64,000 nt of DNA from Pseudomonadota bacterium (lineage in GTDB: Bacteria > Pseudomonadota > Gammaproteobacteria > Burkholderiales > Eutrophovitaceae): the NCBI GenBank assembly GCA_027624715.1, contig JAQBTV010000003.1, forward strand, positions 124,001-188,000. Reading direction: 5' to 3'. A program made the translations under genes and the position numbers. Within the stretch, counting starts at the first letter, position 1. Every line of letters starts with the position of its first letter. Positions 51,716-59,936 of the stretch are shown piece after piece. The notes under the pieces were generated by a model. The model worked only from the letters and a program-made list of their open reading frames with translations. It had not been told where the DNA came from and ran no database searches.

Positions 51716-52681
51716 TTGAGTAAAAGGGTCACCACGAGCATCAAGGAGGCAGTGCGTTTACTAAAGGACGGTCAATTGGTGGCCTTTCCAACGGAGACTG
51801 TATATGGCTTAGGTGCTGACGCGTTAAACCCTTTAGCAGTCAAACGTGTTTATGAGGCGAAGTCCCGACCGTTTGACCACCCCTTGATCATTCATATTGG
51901 TTTTGAGAGCCTTTTGGATGAATTCGCTATAAATATCCCCAGCGCAGCTCGAGAACTCGCCGCCCGTTTTTGGCCTGGACCACTAACCCTTGTTTTGGAT
52001 GCTTCCGATAAAGTCCCCCGTATTGTTACGGGTGGTCAGGATACGGTCGCAATTAGGTTCCCAAGCCATCCTGTCGCCATCGAGTTGTTAAACGAATTTG
52101 GAGGTGGGATTGTTGGTCCCTCAGCGAATAAATTTGGTCGGCTATCCCCAACTAGAGCCGAAGATGTTGCTCGAGTTTTTGGGTCCGAGGTTAGCCTGAT
52201 TCTTGACGGAGGGCCATGTGCCGTAGGCATAGAATCGACCATTATTGGGTTCGACGGAGAGTCACCCGTCATGTTACGACCCGGGATGATTGATAGAGAT
52301 AATGTCTCGAAACAGACTTCGGAGAATGTTTTGAGTGCTGGATTTAAGTTGCCCAGAGTGCCTGGAGCTTTGCCGTCGCACTATGCACCGAGAACTAAAT
52401 TAAGGCTTCTTGCGACAGGGGAAATTAGGCAATACGTAGAACAAAAAGCAGCAGCACATAGACTGGCCCTGCTAACCTTTCAAAAATATTTTGTGGCGGG
52501 CCCTAATATAACGACAATAATTGCGTCGCAAGAACCTAACGATTACGCTAAAAACTTATATCTGCGATTAAGAGAGTTGGATAGCTTTGGCGCTGAGTTA
52601 ATTATTGTTGAGGCAGTTCCAGAGATGAGCTCTTGGGACGGAATTCGAGACCGTCTTACTCGTGCGGCTCATTTGGCCTAG
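51716..52681 (+). CDS. tsaC: Threonylcarbamoyl-AMP synthase (Sua5/TsaC)
   Basis: A 321-residue Sua5-type protein with the YrdC domain (FPTETVYGLGADALN, KSRPFDHPLIIHI, FWPGPLTLVLDA, GGIVGPSANKFGRLSPT) and an extra C-terminal Sua5 domain (from about residue 215). It makes the t6A precursor for tRNA. It starts with TTG at 51716, 4 bases after GAGGGG. Its stop meets the aminotransferase stop on the other strand with 4 shared bases. Confidence 0.93.
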   Translation: MSKRVTTSIKEAVRLLKDGQLVAFPTETVYGLGADALNPLAVKRVYEAKSRPFDHPLIIHIGFESLLDEFAINIPSAARELAARFWPGPLTLVLDASDKVPRIVTGGQDTVAIRFPSHPVAIELLNEFGGGIVGPSANKFGRLSPTRAEDVARVFGSEVSLILDGGPCAVGIESTIIGFDGESPVMLRPGMIDRDNVSKQTSENVLSAGFKLPRVPGALPSHYAPRTKLRLLATGEIRQYVEQKAAAHRLALLTFQKYFVAGPNITTIIASQEPNDYAKNLYLRLRELDSFGAELIIVEAVPEMSSWDGIRDRLTRAAHLA

Positions 52682-53853
52682 TTAGAGCGCATCAGATAAT
52701 CGAGAGCTCTGGAAACCCCCCCTGTGTTGAAAGGGATAGCACAGAGCGCTAACCCCATTTCAACGCCAGACAAAGTGCCGGCTAACGATAAATCGTTAAG
52801 GTCCCCTAAGTGACCAATTCGAAAGACTTGATCATTAAATTTACCGAGGCCAGCACCGAGAGACATATCAAATTTATCAAGGATTTTTTGTCTAAGTTGG
52901 TTCGCGCTGATTCCGGTTGGTGTCATCACGGCGGTAAGTGTATTACTGAAAGCCGCTGGATCACGACACATTGTTTCAAGTCCCCAGTGTGTAACGGCTT
53001 CTCTTGTTGCCGCCGCATGACGAGCGTGCCTACCGAAAACATTGTCGAGACCTACTTCATCCAATATGATTTTAAGAGACTCTTGTAGTCCAAAAATTAA
53101 ATTTGTTGCTGGTGTATAAGGAAAAAAACCCTTCTCGTTATGAGGCAACATGTCACCCCAGTCCCAATAACCACGGTTGTATTGAGACGTAGTATGAAGC
53201 GTTAGTGCGCGAGTGCTAACAGCATTAAAAGACAGTCCTGGGGGCAGCATCAATCCCTTCTGTGAGCCACCAATAGCCACATCAACGCGCCATGCATCAT
53301 GTTGATAGTCGATAGATGCTAGGGAGGAAATAGTGTCAACGAATAAAAGCGCTTGATGTTTGGCGTCGTCGATGGCATTTCTTACTGCCATTATGTCGGA
53401 GGTTACCCCAGTCGACGTTTCATTATGAACGACACAAACGCCCTTAATACTCTGATTTATATCATTTTTAAGGTAGTCGTAGATGCGAGAAGGGTCAACT
53501 GAACTACGCCAATCAGATTCAATGACTTTTACATCAAACCCCAGTTTAGTCGCGAGGCGTTTCCATTGAGCGGCAAAGTATCCGGTTTCGTATATGAGGA
53601 TGGAGTCCCCAGTATTCAGCACATTGGTTAGGCCCGCCTCCCAGGCCCCGGTGCCAGAAGCGGGAAACATAAATACTGGTTGATTTGTTTTGAATACGCG
53701 TTGGAGATTAGATAAAACTTCTAGTCCTAGCTCACCAAATTCCTCACTTCGATGATCAATCGTTGGCCTAGAGACTGCAGCGAGTACTCTGTCAGGAATG
53801 TTGGTTGGACCAGGGATGTGTAGAAAGTGTCTACCGGAACGATGAGTGGGCAT
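52678..53853 (-). CDS. Serine-glyoxylate-type aminotransferase (class V)
   Basis: A 391-residue PLP enzyme close to the serine/alanine-glyoxylate aminotransferases. The N-terminal GRHFLHIPGPTNIPDRVL is characteristic. PASGTGAWEAGLTNVL, HNETSTGV and VDTISSLAS line the cofactor site, and K199 in GGSQKGLMLPPG should bind PLP. The usual reaction moves the amino group from serine or alanine to glyoxylate, giving glycine and hydroxypyruvate or pyruvate. It lies 97 bases downstream of an IlvD/Edd dehydratase on the same strand, which hints at a shared pathway through glyoxylate or a 2-keto acid. Confidence 0.88.
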   Translation of the reverse strand: MPTHRSGRHFLHIPGPTNIPDRVLAAVSRPTIDHRSEEFGELGLEVLSNLQRVFKTNQPVFMFPASGTGAWEAGLTNVLNTGDSILIYETGYFAAQWKRLATKLGFDVKVIESDWRSSVDPSRIYDYLKNDINQSIKGVCVVHNETSTGVTSDIMAVRNAIDDAKHQALLFVDTISSLASIDYQHDAWRVDVAIGGSQKGLMLPPGLSFNAVSTRALTLHTTSQYNRGYWDWGDMLPHNEKGFFPYTPATNLIFGLQESLKIILDEVGLDNVFGRHARHAAATREAVTHWGLETMCRDPAAFSNTLTAVMTPTGISANQLRQKILDKFDMSLGAGLGKFNDQVFRIGHLGDLNDLSLAGTLSGVEMGLALCAIPFNTGGVSRALDYLMRSN

Positions 53854-53950: not shown

Positions 53951-55684
53951 CTAGTGTATTTCAGGATCATCGGTAGTGGCCTCACCACTTAAGAAGTCGA
54001 AATCGCAACCCTCGTGCGCCTGCTGGACATGTTGCGAAAATAATTGACCGTACCCCCGCCGAAATTTTCTCATTTTAGGAGACCATGTTTGTCGTCGGGC
54101 TTCCATTTCTGCGTCTGATATTAAAACATTGATTTTGCGGTTTGCAACACTTAGTTCTATTACATCGCCCGTTTTGATGAGTGCGAGCGGCCCGCCGATC
54201 CAAGATTCGGGGGATACGTGTAGGACACATGTACCGTAGCTCGTGCCGCTCATCCGAGCATCGGATATTCGAACCATATCCTTGACGCCCTTTTGAATAA
54301 GTTTTTTGGGGATCGGCAACATGCCCCATTCCGGCATACCGGGGCCCCCTTGAGGTCCAGAATTTCGGAGAACAAGAATCGAACTTTCATCTACATCTAG
54401 ATTGGGATCATCTAATTGCCGTTCCATGTCATTGTAGTCGTCGAAAACTATTGCTTTGCCACGATGATTGAGTAACGCTGGAGTTGCGGCGGAGGTTTTG
54501 ATGACAGCCCCATCTGGAGCAAGATTGCCTTTTAAAATAATTAAACCACCTTCCGCAAGTATCGGCTGCTTTAGGGGTTTAATAACCTCATGATTGAATA
54601 TCTTAAAGCGTTCAATATTTTCTCCTAAGGATTTTCCAGTGCAAGTTAATGCGTCGCAATGTAGTAACGGTCGCATTTCTTGCAGTAGAGCAGCCAGGCC
54701 ACCTGCGTAGTGAAAGTCTTCCATGAGGTATTCACCTGATGGCCGCATATTAACTAAATAAGGGGTGGTTTTCCCAAGCTGTTCAAATAGCTCGAGTGGT
54801 ATGTTGAACCCGGCTCGTTTAGCTATTGCAATTAAGTGAATAAGCGCATTGGTAGAGCCGCCGAGAGCCATTAACACGCGCACAGCATTTTCAATTGACG
54901 GCCATGTCAAAATATCTCGAGGAGTGAGATCCTCCCAAACCATATCTACGACACGCCGGCCTGACTCGGACGCCATTCTTGGATGATTCGAATCTGGTGC
55001 TGGTATTGTGGACGCATTAGGTAGCGAAAATCCTAATGTTTCCACGATACTGGTCATAGTCGATGCGGTTCCCATGGTCATGCATGTGCCGGCCGATCGG
55101 GCGATACCCTCCTCGATGTCTCGCCAATCGTCTTCACTGATATTCCCAACTCTCAGTTCGTCCCAGTACTTCCAGACATCAGACCCAGACCCAAGCGTTT
55201 TACCGTGCCAGTTTCCTCGAAGCATGGGACCTGCAGGCACAAAAATGCAAGGCAGCCCCATGCTTAAGGCCCCCATCAGCAAGCCTGGTGGAGTTTTGTC
55301 GCAGCCCCCCATCAGAACACACCCATCAATTGGGTAGGATCGTAAGATTTCTTCAACTTCCATAGAAAGCAAGTTGCGATACATCATAGTTGTTGGTTTT
55401 TGATAAACTTCAGCTAGGGACATCACTGGAATCTCAACGGGGAAGCCCCCTGCTTGCCAAACCCCTCGCTTTACGTCTTGGGCTCTCTCTCTAAAATGGG
55501 AATGACAATGACTGAGCTCACTCCAAGTATTTAGGATCCCAATTACGGGTTTACCTTCGTAGTCTTTCCGACTGAAACCCATTTGTAGGGTCCGGGATCG
55601 ATGCCCAAAAGCTCGCAGGCTTTGCGGACCGAACCATCGATGAGAGCGTAGTTCAGAGCTTTCTTTTATTTTTTTGTTCCGCAT
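53951..55684 (-). CDS. IlvD/Edd-family dehydratase (sugar-acid dehydratase-like)
   Basis: A 577-residue Fe-S dehydratase. The start region ELRSHRWFGP and RAFGHRSRTLQMG is typical of aldonate (arabinonate/xylonate/gluconate) dehydratases more than of true IlvD. Three probable cluster cysteines are C60 (SELSHCHSHFRE), C128 (MGGCDKTPPG) and C201 (AGTCMTMGTAST), with Mg2+-binding residues nearby. Such enzymes turn a sugar acid into a 2-keto-3-deoxy acid. The ATG at 55684 is preferred over a GTG at 55696. It is divergent from the lar operon with a 196-208 bp gap, which suggests a shared regulator or pathway. The exact sugar acid is unknown. Confidence 0.87.
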   Translation of the reverse strand: MRNKKIKESSELRSHRWFGPQSLRAFGHRSRTLQMGFSRKDYEGKPVIGILNTWSELSHCHSHFRERAQDVKRGVWQAGGFPVEIPVMSLAEVYQKPTTMMYRNLLSMEVEEILRSYPIDGCVLMGGCDKTPPGLLMGALSMGLPCIFVPAGPMLRGNWHGKTLGSGSDVWKYWDELRVGNISEDDWRDIEEGIARSAGTCMTMGTASTMTSIVETLGFSLPNASTIPAPDSNHPRMASESGRRVVDMVWEDLTPRDILTWPSIENAVRVLMALGGSTNALIHLIAIAKRAGFNIPLELFEQLGKTTPYLVNMRPSGEYLMEDFHYAGGLAALLQEMRPLLHCDALTCTGKSLGENIERFKIFNHEVIKPLKQPILAEGGLIILKGNLAPDGAVIKTSAATPALLNHRGKAIVFDDYNDMERQLDDPNLDVDESSILVLRNSGPQGGPGMPEWGMLPIPKKLIQKGVKDMVRISDARMSGTSYGTCVLHVSPESWIGGPLALIKTGDVIELSVANRKINVLISDAEMEARRQTWSPKMRKFRRGYGQLFSQHVQQAHEGCDFDFLSGEATTDDPEIH

Positions 55685-55696
55685 TCGTCGATACAC

Positions 55697-55892: not shown

Positions 55893-57215
55893 ATGATTGG
55901 TGATCGAATTGATGTAAATATTGCGGGAGGCCTAGACGTTCCTTTGCCACGAATGGTACATGTGAGACAGAAGTTTGAACTGTCCAAAATTAGTAGTGTT
56001 AGAGAAACCGTAGCTCAGGAATTCAAGAGACCGGTCATTCAATCGAAGATTAAACCTGGAATGACCATTGCATTGGGTGTTGGCTCTAGAGGGGTTAACA
56101 ATATTGCCGCGTGTGTAAAAGCCGTCGTGGATGAAATTAAGTCACTTGGCGGAAAGCCATTTGTCTTTCCTGCGATGGGCAGCCATGGTGGTGCTACTGC
56201 TGAGGGACAAAAAGAAGTGCTGGATGGTTATGGTGTTACGGAAGCATTCATTGGGTGCCCGGTAAAGTCTAGTATGGAGGTTGTGGAGATTGGAACAGCT
56301 GATGATGGGATGCCGGTTTACATGGATAAACTGGCTTCGGAAGCTGACGCTGTAGCGCTTGTTTGTCGTGTCAAGCCGCATACAAATTTTAGAGCTCCTA
56401 TTGAGTCGGGCATCGTTAAAATGCTGACGATTGGTATGGGGAAAATTATTGGTGCGTCGATACTGCATACCTATGGCATGGATATGTTTGGTGTGTTGCT
56501 GCCTAAAGTCGCAAAAATCGTTATGGAGAAAAAGAATTTTCTCTTCGGTGTGGCTATGGTTGAAAACGCCGCAGATGAAACAGCGCTCATCGAAATTGTT
56601 CCGAGTGAAAAGGTTCTGGAACGAGAGCCGTTCTTATTGGCTCAAGCGAAAAAGCTGATGCCGAAATTACAATTTGAAGAAATTGATGTGTTGATTGTAG
56701 AGAAGATTGGAAAAAATATATCTGGCTCAGGAATGGATCCCAATATAACAGGCCGGAATTGCCGTGATGTTGAATGGGAGATGAGCCCACACGTTAAAAA
56801 AATTGCTGTATTGGGACTTACTCCTGAGACGCACGGAAATGCCACTGGGTTGGGTTCGGCTGATGTGATCACGATGGATGTATATCGAGAACTTGATATC
56901 GCCAAGACATATGCCAACGTAATCACATCGATGTATTTAGACGGCGCGACTATACCTATCATCATGAATAACGATCAGGAAGCTATACAGCTGGCCGTCA
57001 AGACGGTGGTTAGAGTAAAGCCGGCAGATACAAAAATTGTTAGAATTTCTACAACACTCGAAGTGATGGATTTACACGTATCTGAAACTTTGTTGCCCTA
57101 TATTCGAAGCAACTTGGATAAGTTCGAGATTCTGAGCGAGCCAGAGGCGATGAAGTTTGATGCTAAAGGCAAGATTTACCCGATGCTGGCTGCGCGTACA
57201 CGCGTTCATGCTTGA
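55893..57215 (+). CDS. larA: LarA-family 2-hydroxy-acid racemase/epimerase (nickel-pincer enzyme)
   Basis: A 440-residue DUF2088/LarA-family protein. By spacing against L. plantarum LarA, the key residues appear present. H98 (GSHGGAT) and H163 (KPHTNFR) would be the proton-transfer pair, K176 (GIVKMLTIG) the lysine that binds the nickel-pincer nucleotide, and H192 (LHTYGMD), 16 residues later, the nickel ligand. This correspondence is by eye. LarA swaps D- and L-lactate by hydride transfer, and homologues act on other 2-hydroxy acids including malate and gluconate. The adjacent sugar-acid dehydratase favours a substrate other than lactate. All three cofactor genes follow. Confidence 0.88.
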   Translation: MIGDRIDVNIAGGLDVPLPRMVHVRQKFELSKISSVRETVAQEFKRPVIQSKIKPGMTIALGVGSRGVNNIAACVKAVVDEIKSLGGKPFVFPAMGSHGGATAEGQKEVLDGYGVTEAFIGCPVKSSMEVVEIGTADDGMPVYMDKLASEADAVALVCRVKPHTNFRAPIESGIVKMLTIGMGKIIGASILHTYGMDMFGVLLPKVAKIVMEKKNFLFGVAMVENAADETALIEIVPSEKVLEREPFLLAQAKKLMPKLQFEEIDVLIVEKIGKNISGSGMDPNITGRNCRDVEWEMSPHVKKIAVLGLTPETHGNATGLGSADVITMDVYRELDIAKTYANVITSMYLDGATIPIIMNNDQEAIQLAVKTVVRVKPADTKIVRISTTLEVMDLHVSETLLPYIRSNLDKFEILSEPEAMKFDAKGKIYPMLAARTRVHA

Positions 57216-57256
57216 GCGGTTAAGAGTGTTGTGAAGTCTTTCATGAATCGTTGAGA

Positions 57257-58438
57257 ATGCGAGTCCATTTAGATCCCATCGGGGGCATCGCGGGAGATAT
57301 GTTCATCGCCGCCATTCTAGACGCGAAACCAGAATGGTACGATGAAATGTGTGCGGCGATTCGTATTGCAGGCTTGCCCAAAGAGGTAGGGCTGTCTCTA
57401 CTGCCACACTCTGATTTTGCTCTCACAGGGAAACGTTTTAATGTTGATGAGCTAGGCGTCCATGAGCATCATCATACGTCGTTTTCGTACATCAGAAGTG
57501 CGTTGTCCGCTTCAGATTTGGATCCTCAAGTACGGCAAATTGCAATCGATATTTTTTGTCTTTTGGCAGAGGCTGAATCGGCTGTTCATGGTAAGCCTGT
57601 TGAGACCATTAGTTTTCATGAAGTGGGCGAGTGGGATTCTATTGCGGACATTGTTGGAGCGGCATTTTTAATTGATAAGCTCTCAGCTAGTTGGACCTTA
57701 AGTGCTCTGCCACTTGGGCGTGGCACAGTTGATACTAGTCATGGTATTTTGCCAGTACCTACACCGGCGACGGTTAAGCTGTTGGAGGGTTTTTACTTTG
57801 ATGACGATGGTCTCGATGGGGAGCGAATCACCCCGACCGGTGCCGCGATTTTGGCGTATCTAAAACCACGACAATCAGGCGCAGGGCAGGCTGGTAAGCT
57901 TATTGCTTCTGGTACGGGTTTTGGGACTAAGGTTTTTTCAAAGAAAAGTAATGTCTTACGAGCGTTAATGATATCGGCTGCTGGTCAAGAGAATAGTTCG
58001 CAGAACGTGATATATCAAATTGATTTTGATGTCGATGACCAGAGCGCTGAAGACCTAGCGATAGGGTTAGACCATATTCGTGCAATCCCTACGGTGCTAG
58101 ATGTTACCCAGGCCGTAACGTTCGGGAAAAAAGGGCGGATGGCAATAATAATTCGTGTTCTTGCAGAGACCACTCAGATCGATCAGGTTTTTGATGCTTG
58201 TTTTTTTGAAACAACAACGATTGGATTGCGCTATCAGATATTGAGCCGCGTGACTCTTGATCGATGGAAAAAGAACTGCGTCACGGAAATGTTGGAGGCA
58301 GAATGTAAGTTTGTGATCCGACCCGGGGCCACAACCGTTAAGGTTGAAGCAGACGCTCTTGTTGACATTCAAGGGCATGCTAATCGAGAAGGCATACGAC
58401 GAGAGATGGCAATCAAATATGGGGTAACAGGTGATTGA
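57257..58438 (+). CDS. larC: Nickel insertion protein LarC
   Basis: A 393-residue CTP-dependent nickel insertase that completes the nickel-pincer nucleotide. It starts MRVHLDPIGGIAGDMFIAAI, the family hallmark. The histidine-rich metal-binding part is short here (VHEHHHTSF). SFHEVGEWDSIADIVGAAFL, PTPATVKLLEG and TPTGAAILAYL follow, and the second half (about 255-393) is the LarC2 part. It is a single continuous frame, unlike the L. plantarum gene, which needs a frameshift. The ATG at 57257 is chosen; a TTG two codons earlier is possible. It overlaps larE by 8 bases. Confidence 0.9.
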   Translation: MRVHLDPIGGIAGDMFIAAILDAKPEWYDEMCAAIRIAGLPKEVGLSLLPHSDFALTGKRFNVDELGVHEHHHTSFSYIRSALSASDLDPQVRQIAIDIFCLLAEAESAVHGKPVETISFHEVGEWDSIADIVGAAFLIDKLSASWTLSALPLGRGTVDTSHGILPVPTPATVKLLEGFYFDDDGLDGERITPTGAAILAYLKPRQSGAGQAGKLIASGTGFGTKVFSKKSNVLRALMISAAGQENSSQNVIYQIDFDVDDQSAEDLAIGLDHIRAIPTVLDVTQAVTFGKKGRMAIIIRVLAETTQIDQVFDACFFETTTIGLRYQILSRVTLDRWKKNCVTEMLEAECKFVIRPGATTVKVEADALVDIQGHANREGIRREMAIKYGVTGD

Positions 58439-59270
58439 AGAAGCGCCTAAGCAGGCGGCTAGAATAACTGCGCTGCTCGCTGAGATGCGAGAGATCTCCG
58501 TTGCCGTTAGCGGCGGCATTGATAGCGTGACGCTTGCTATGTTGGCGACACGGACAAAGAGTATTAATGTTCAAATGTACCATGCCGTTTCCCCAGCAGT
58601 GCCATCACAGGCAACAGATCGAGTGAAGCAGCTTGCTCAAGACTATGATTGGGATCTCAAAATTTTGGACGCACGCGAATTTGCTGACGAAGACTATTTA
58701 TCGAATCCAGTCAATCGTTGTTTTTACTGTAAAACAAATTTATATAAAGCAATATCAACTGTTACCGCAAATGTCGTCTTATCAGGAGCAAATGTGGACG
58801 ATTTATCCGATTACCGACCTGGACTAGATGCGGCTAAAAATGCGAAAGTTCGCCATCCATTTGTTGAAACCCATACGGATAAACGAATGGTTAGAGCCAT
58901 CGCTAAGTACATTGGCTTGGGCGAGCTATCTGAACTGGCAGCATCTCCTTGTCTGTCGAGTCGGGTTGAGACGGGCATCCGAATTGATCCCGAACTTTTG
59001 CCTCTTATTAATGAGTCTGAGCGTCTGATTAAACAGTCGGTGCTCCCAGAGCCCAAAACAGTGAGATGCCGGCTTCGAGCAACAGGCATTGTAATTGAGT
59101 TGGATGGAGTGTCTTTATCGAGCCTGACGACTGAAAAAGAACGCTCATTAAAAGGGATTATCAATGCGGTTTTTGAAAAACGAGGGCATCGTTATCCTGT
59201 CAGCTTCGAAGCCTATAAAGTAGGCAGCGCATTTATTCATATTCGTTCTGTGGATACGCACCCTTTCTAA
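58431..59270 (+). CDS. larE: ATP-dependent sacrificial/cluster sulfur transferase LarE
   Basis: A 279-residue PP-loop enzyme that adds sulfur to the pyridinium carboxylates of the cofactor. The ATP motif AVSGGIDSVTLAML lies at 25-38. C97 and C100 (NRCFYCKTNLY) and C174 (SPCLSSRVETG) form the three-cysteine set of LarE proteins thought to hold a [4Fe-4S] cluster. Single-cysteine LarE, as in L. plantarum, has only the last one and gives up its own sulfur. GTG at 58431 is the start, within the larC end. It ends directly before larB. Confidence 0.9.
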   Translation: MIEEAPKQAARITALLAEMREISVAVSGGIDSVTLAMLATRTKSINVQMYHAVSPAVPSQATDRVKQLAQDYDWDLKILDAREFADEDYLSNPVNRCFYCKTNLYKAISTVTANVVLSGANVDDLSDYRPGLDAAKNAKVRHPFVETHTDKRMVRAIAKYIGLGELSELAASPCLSSRVETGIRIDPELLPLINESERLIKQSVLPEPKTVRCRLRATGIVIELDGVSLSSLTTEKERSLKGIINAVFEKRGHRYPVSFEAYKVGSAFIHIRSVDTHPF

Positions 59271-59936
59271 ATGGACGCTAAAAAAGACATTAACTTAGAC
59301 TTTGATCGAGAAGATCGCATTGGACTTGATGAAGCTATTTTCTGCGAGGGGAAAACGGCGGAACAAATAGCCGAAATTCTTTTTCAGGCTAAATTGAGGC
59401 AGCATCGGTTTCTTCTCACGCGCTTTTCTCAAGATAAACAACAACACGTCCTTAGCCTAGGCGATTTTGAGATGGATTATGACCCGATTTCACAAACCGG
59501 TTTCTCTCCTGACTCAAATAAGCTTCTGAGTCAAAATCAGGTATCAGTAATTTGTGCGGGCACCTCGGATATCCCGGTCGCAAGAGAGGCAGCTAGGACG
59601 TTGCAATACTATGGGCATCAAGCCAAAGAGATATCTGATGTGGGTGTGGCGGGGTTGTGGCGATTGCTTGATCGATTAGATGATATTAAGGCGTCTAAAG
59701 TTATTATTGTAGTGGCGGGAATGGATGCGGCATTGCCAACAGTCTTGGGCGGCTTGGTTGCGCAACCGCTTATTGGGGTTCCAACTTCCGTTGGATATGG
59801 CGTAGCTCAAGGCGGAGCCGCCGCGCTTCATGCCATGTTGGTCAGTTGTTCTCCAGGGATAACCGTCACAAATATTGATAACGGTTATGGTGGCGCATGC
59901 GCCGCCCTGAGAATACTCAGGACAGCACATATTTAA
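59271..59936 (+). CDS. larB: Nickel-pincer cofactor biosynthesis protein LarB
   Basis: A 221-residue protein with a PurE-like C-terminal domain. The N-terminal half has DFDREDRIGLDEAIFCEGKT and AEQIAEILF. The C-terminal part has AGTSDIPVAREAARTLQYYG, DVGVAGLWRLL, VAGMDAALPTVLGGLVA and GVPTSVGYGVAQGG, ending in NIDNGYGGACAALRILR. LarB carboxylates and hydrolyses nicotinic acid adenine dinucleotide, the first step to the cofactor. It starts at the base after the larE stop. The order A-C-E-B differs from the larA-B-C-D-E order of L. plantarum, and no larD (glycerol/lactate channel) is present. Confidence 0.92.
   Translation: MDAKKDINLDFDREDRIGLDEAIFCEGKTAEQIAEILFQAKLRQHRFLLTRFSQDKQQHVLSLGDFEMDYDPISQTGFSPDSNKLLSQNQVSVICAGTSDIPVAREAARTLQYYGHQAKEISDVGVAGLWRLLDRLDDIKASKVIIVVAGMDAALPTVLGGLVAQPLIGVPTSVGYGVAQGGAAALHAMLVSCSPGITVTNIDNGYGGACAALRILRTAHI

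Follow-up and report, generated by a model that had tools for sequence, protein, structure and literature searches.

The lar locus examined here lies in a 64,000-nucleotide stretch of contig JAQBTV010000003.1 (the window) from an uncultured bacterium, and it raises the question of how the encoded LarE obtains the sulfur that it transfers: by giving up one of its own cysteines or by way of an iron-sulfur cluster. An initial annotation had favored the catalytic route, setting the sacrificial L. plantarum enzyme against the [4Fe-4S] enzyme of Thermotoga, and in this it rendered the literature correctly. According to the study of the Thermotoga maritima enzyme (LarETm), C92, C95, and C172 bind an oxygen-labile [4Fe-4S] cluster, no cysteine sulfur is given up, and turnover proceeds with IscS and L-cysteine as the supply; there, cysteine variants were combined with EPR, mass spectrometry, and turnover assays fed by IscS (PMC9283937). 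The same study describes the sacrificial Cys176 of L. plantarum LarE as shifted one residue relative to the third ligand. A second paper likewise has non-sacrificial LarE coordinating the cluster through three cysteines (PMC13329287).

NCBIfam matches place the gene in a larA-larC-larE-larB run, with the start of larE overlapping the final 8 bases of larC and larB directly 3′ of larE (Table 1). A reading frame (plus strand, GTG start, 279 aa) occupies exactly the positions previously given for larE, and it encodes the one LarE above the TIGR00268 cut-off in this genome. The window larC is uninterrupted, with its two parts in a single frame; a frameshift is known in larC of L. plantarum. The group-22 LarA homolog is the likely user of the cofactor. 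Divergent from larA are genes for an L-arabinonate dehydratase family protein (window 53951-55696, minus strand; NF009559, 966.8 bits, above cut-off) and an aminotransferase (window 52678-53853, minus strand; best NCBIfam match BhcA, below its cut-off), neighbors which hint that this LarA acts on a sugar acid. Among the best 80 of 581 loci found in a contig scan, a homolog of the dehydratase occurs in only three, two of them the closest relatives, and only 10 carry, within the kept flanks, a relative of the group-22 LarA encoded in the window. The window LarA aligned poorly with part of L. plantarum LarA, and we drew no inference from that comparison.

Table 1. Features of the lar locus, in window coordinates.
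Feature	Position	Strand	Basis
larA homolog, NPN-dependent isomerase group 22	55893..57215	+	NF052515 527.7 bits, cut-off 400
larC, nickel insertion, LarC1 and LarC2 parts in one frame	57251..58438	+	TIGR00299 175.5 bits, NF052512 80.1 bits, both above cut-off
larE, ATP-dependent P2CMN sulfur insertase, 279 aa, GTG start	58431..59270	+	TIGR00268 223.2 bits, cut-off 150
PP-loop SGGIDS (residues 27-32), ATP binding	58509..58526	+	translation; role from PMC9283937
C97 codon, predicted first [4Fe-4S] ligand, of CXXC	58719..58721	+	aligned with mmLarE CXXC; motif as in LarETm
C100 codon, predicted second [4Fe-4S] ligand	58728..58730	+	aligned with mmLarE CXXC; motif as in LarETm
C174 codon, predicted third [4Fe-4S] ligand	58950..58952	+	alignments to mmLarE and L. 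plantarum LarE
C213 codon, fourth cysteine, between R212 and R214, marks a LarE group	59067..59069	+	alignment column, quick tree
larB, NaAD carboxylase/hydrolase	59271..59936	+	NF033503 266.2 bits, cut-off 175

Window LarE contains four cysteines, at positions 97, 100, 174, and 213. The first two sit in the motif N-R-C-F-Y-C-K and the third in P-C-L-S-S-R, just where the initial annotation had seen a CxxC pair plus C174; its count of three needs one correction, as it had overlooked C213. In a profile alignment, C97, C100, and C174 match the three cysteines of the 8CNZ protein, mmLarE, which we take to be the LarE of Methanococcus maripaludis; the PDB entries 8CNZ and 8CP4 (both with the [4Fe-4S] cluster) and 8CP3 (apo) are presumably those of Zecchin et al. 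2024. By simple combinatorics, four cysteines placed at random in 279 residues would cover all three ligand positions with a probability of 1.1e-6. The residue preceding C174 is P173, and both the profile alignment and a 12-sequence alignment place it opposite Cys176, the sacrificial residue in L. plantarum. The profile alignment also pairs S177, R212, and R214 with Ser180, Arg212, and Arg214 of L. plantarum LarE, the proposed binders of the substrate phosphate (PMC9283937). Window LarE has in common with LarETm the CXXC-C motif, the PP-loop, and the proposed P2CMN phosphate binders. Across an alignment of window LarE with the LarE of 134 loci (135 rows, in which the window and L001 represent the same gene), the PP-loop residues S27, G28, G29, D31, and S32 are conserved in 134 rows, the remaining one being gapped there.

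An AlphaFold2 model of window LarE, built from 79 aligned sequences, reached a mean pLDDT of 94.1 and a pTM of 0.87, with values of 91-97 for the ten-residue blocks containing the four cysteines. In VIA-align, the model superposes best on cluster-bound mmLarE (8cnz_C; Z 26.6, rmsd 2.0 Å, 250 residues, 18% identity), whose Z exceeds that of the best L. plantarum chain (24.9) by 1.7, while the second cluster-bound chain, 8cp4_A (Z 25.3), is tied with the latter. Rows 1 to 19 of the VIA-align output are LarE only, the 19th being the apo structure 8cp3 (rmsd 9.5). All 50 Foldseek matches listed are LarE structures as well. Speaking against a cluster are the 18% identity to mmLarE and the Foldseek E-value order, in which the sacrificial LarE of L. 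plantarum fills the first rows and mmLarE appears from rank 23, although TM-scores are similar or higher for mmLarE. The superposition on cluster-bound mmLarE speaks only indirectly to whether the three cysteines converge in a model, the check that the initial annotation had named. Since both kinds of LarE are structurally close to the model, the fold alone cannot tell one mechanism from the other, and the deciding feature is the cysteine motif. In this respect, mmLarE resembles window LarE in its CXXC and distant cysteine, differing by a valine in place of C213, whereas L. plantarum LarE (PDB 5UDQ and others) shares the fold, the PP-loop, and the substrate-phosphate residues with window LarE but lacks the CXXC-C motif.

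The CXXC-C motif, the proline at position 173, and the structural match together argue well, by homology, for non-sacrificial, cluster-based transfer, the type that the initial annotation had proposed. We put at roughly 90% the probability that window LarE is a non-sacrificial enzyme with a [4Fe-4S] cluster. Sequence, motif, fold match, and gene order are direct results for the window gene; by analogy with the T. maritima and M. maripaludis enzymes, window LarE would bind the cluster, pass through a [4Fe-5S] intermediate, and retain its cysteines. In such a mechanism, C97, C100, and C174 would hold three irons of the cluster beside the PP-loop ATP site. LarB would make P2CMN, and LarE would adenylylate one of its carboxylates; the fourth iron, which is open, would carry a sulfide that then attacks the adenylylated carboxylate with release of AMP and is renewed from a cysteine desulfurase persulfide. 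A second round would yield P2TMN, which LarC would nickelate for the group-22 LarA enzyme. A point against is that activity was only modestly reduced in single-cysteine variants of LarETm (PMC9283937), which implies that no one of the three ligands is strictly required. The same general chemistry, adenylylation followed by sulfide attack from an open iron, is described for TtuA and its kin among the tRNA thiolases, which are PP-loop enzymes holding a three-cysteine [4Fe-4S] cluster (PMC9283937); these differ from LarE in acting on tRNA. If window LarE does work in this way, producing the NPN cofactor with a LarE of this kind would need anaerobic handling and a cysteine desulfurase, and would do without a stoichiometric amount of LarE.

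Might C174 or C213 instead give up its cysteinyl sulfur and become dehydroalanine, as happens in L. plantarum LarE? The shared fold, PP-loop, and phosphate-binding residues, the position of C174 one residue off that of Cys176, the leading place of L. plantarum LarE in the Foldseek ranking, and the label 'sacrificial' that the NCBIfam model gives to the whole family would all fit. In the 135-row alignment, however, the column of Cys176 holds P in 120 rows, A in 11, and a gap in three; the sole row with C is L061, the L. plantarum plasmid copy, which in turn has W, A, and S at the three ligand columns. A single donor cysteine at the Cys176 position without a CXXC is the hallmark of the sacrificial type, and window LarE presents the reverse picture; with a proline at the donor position and all cluster ligands present, we consider sacrificial transfer highly improbable.

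Persulfide chemistry without a cluster, in which C97, C100, or C174 would carry a persulfide received from a desulfurase, as in MnmA or ThiI, and the CXXC would serve as a redox pair, appears less probable still. Window LarE does have a CXXC pair, and the authors of the LarETm study could not exclude a persulfide in addition to the [4Fe-4S] cluster (PMC9283937). Yet the same motif binds the cluster in LarETm, only cluster-containing LarETm took up significant sulfur from the IscS persulfide (PMC9283937), and the mmLarE structure was solved with its cluster. That the protein belongs to a PP-loop group other than LarE is the least probable reading of all: a Pfam search of the protein at 1e-3 matched no family, plasmid records of relatives bear the name 'adenine nucleotide alpha hydrolase', and a long stem separates its group from the sampled RVR-type LarE, but the TIGR00268 score exceeds the cut-off, the LarE substrate residues are conserved, and homologs of both larC and larB flank larE in 70 of the best 80 of 581 contig-scan loci (larC in 73, larB in 75; flanks of at most 5 kb). 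Both that name and 'ATP-dependent sacrificial sulfur transferase LarE' can mislead for proteins of this kind.

Of the 135 aligned rows, 131 contain the complete set of ligand cysteines; three rows stop before the third cysteine, and the fourth exception is L. plantarum. Among 40 relatives besides the genome itself, 18 have a LarE above the cut-off, and all 18 loci retain the three cysteines (19/19 rows including the window's own gene). An HMM sample of the window's phylum, limited to completeness of at least 90 and E of at most 1e-30, returned LarE in 34 of 299 genomes, and the motif was found in each of the 30 best-scoring loci; of the others, G282, G194, and G193 were left out of the reading and the 34th is the window's own. 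The contig scan yielded the motif in 78 of 80 loci, the other two being broken by an in-frame stop with the third cysteine beyond it, a count that is biased toward the motif and gives no frequency, as the scan patterns include cysteine motifs and the best 80 of 581 loci were kept. Of five plasmid records, three carry the motif, one is L. plantarum, where it is absent, and one has the same in-frame stop. The three-cysteine LarE is therefore the usual form in the sampled loci, as two papers already say, one of them stating that most LarE homologs carry CXXC-C (PMC9283937); among these loci, the exception is L. plantarum with its sacrificial LarE. In this regard window LarE is not distinctive: it is the common form, with a mechanism already published.

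The stop-bearing larE genes (L040:5971-6783, L103:4971-5780, and L105:4857-5666) are identical in DNA sequence; in each, residue 136 of the stretch read is followed by an in-frame TAA, past which the frame stays open. L040 is from plasmid pRtrCIAT899b of Rhizobium tropici CIAT 899, and L103 and L105 come from two Rhizobium lusitanum genomes; possibly, this is a recently inactivated lar operon on a shared element. On the R. tropici plasmid, larC and larB are annotated as genes beside the interrupted larE. Before the longer larC, where one might look for larA, lie the genes for a 594-aa protein of unknown function (L040:2347-4131) and for a protein of 176 aa that is annotated as larC (L040:4131-4661).

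The fourth cysteine, C213, marks a group of LarE in which it is nearly invariant. Across the alignment, its column holds C in 98 rows, V in 31, F in three, and a gap in three, and in the HMM sample of the window's own phylum V prevails (28/30, with C in two). A quick tree built from 130 rows places 98 of them (96 with C, two with F) beyond a branch of length 2.33 with SH-aLRT support of 98. This long branch divides window LarE from the RVR-type LarE in the sample, which counts against the cluster reading. For this quick search, column 213 itself was kept in the input, L132 was trimmed to its last 280 residues, and five rows were left out: L001 as the same gene as the window, L040, L103, and L105 for the in-frame stop, and L021 for a run of N. 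The tree is to be read with the warning that long branches meet in it (L022 with the 98-row group); L022, L061, and L063 were flagged as long and all kept, and L022, which scores 156.5 bits (cut-off 150), is perhaps not a genuine LarE. Named rows of the C213 group are mostly Pseudomonadota, together with two Myxococcota, two Actinomycetota, and one Acidobacteriota. In the open-access literature searched, we recognized neither a characterized member nor a paper naming the group or its fourth cysteine. LarETm lies outside the tree; its own fourth cysteine, C174 in LarETm numbering, adjoins the third ligand, whereas C213 stands between two arginines, and the phrase 'the four cysteine residues' in the LarETm paper suggests that this enzyme has no cysteine at the C213 position.

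C213 is an unlikely fourth ligand of the cluster, as its column varies between C, V, and F and both mmLarE and L. plantarum LarE have V there. Such a role is also disfavored by its place in a predicted strand (211-216) between arginines thought to face the substrate, as the side chain should then face away. Rather than a ligand, the mixture of C, V, and F in the aligned sequences suggests a buried core position. Should C213 nevertheless reach the cluster or substrate, this uncharacterized LarE group could use it to relay a persulfide from the desulfurase to the open iron or to help protect an oxygen-labile cluster in oxygen-respiring hosts; we consider this improbable, but if true, it would add a third way of supplying LarE with sulfur. 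Several groups of LarA may be served by LarE of the C213 group: at L106:6496-7800, larB is followed by a LarA-like protein of another sort, beside transporter-like genes (read by eye). Group-22 LarA (NF052515) was found in none of five genomes around G086, a genome with an RVR-type LarE.

By LarE, the nearest named relatives among the best 80 of 581 loci are the metagenome-assembled 'Betaproteobacteria bacterium' UBA3031 (88% identity) and TMED22 (75%). The window's own genome (1.77 Mb, 97.2% complete, 32 contigs) encodes a heme-copper oxidase subunit I (551.9 bits), from which we infer that the uncultured host probably respires oxygen. Both characterized cluster-type LarEs come from anaerobes; the oxidase implies that this type is not confined to them, and the published mechanism would thereby extend to a bacterium that probably respires oxygen. 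Window LarE would have to maintain an oxygen-labile cluster in an aerobe, and aerobic bacteria do keep other oxygen-labile Fe-S enzymes.

As to the sulfur donor, the own assembly gave no strong cysteine desulfurase match, the best PF00266 (aminotransferase class V) score being 151.4 bits, and no match to SufB in a search run without a positive control. Seven of eight congeners (G001-G005, G007, and G008) have PF00266 matches at 364.5 to 509.3 bits, and the lowest-scoring of these is truncated where its contig ends; the eighth, G006, which is 80% complete, has nothing above 106.5 bits. In congener G002, a region was read by eye as a SUF operon; a NifU-like gene borders it at one end, and genes resembling TrmJ and mutS border it at the other. 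Searches of the own genome with these three flanking proteins, likewise without a positive control, were also empty. As the flanking genes gave no match either, the lack of desulfurase and SufB is probably an assembly gap, the simplest reading given the desulfurase matches in the congeners, and we set aside the absence of SufS and SufB as evidence against the mechanism. Elsewhere in the own genome, some 9 to 10 kb beyond the window's right end (L035:2631-3518), a TtcA-like PP-loop protein with CxxC motifs was read by eye, a probable second [4Fe-4S] sulfur-transfer enzyme.
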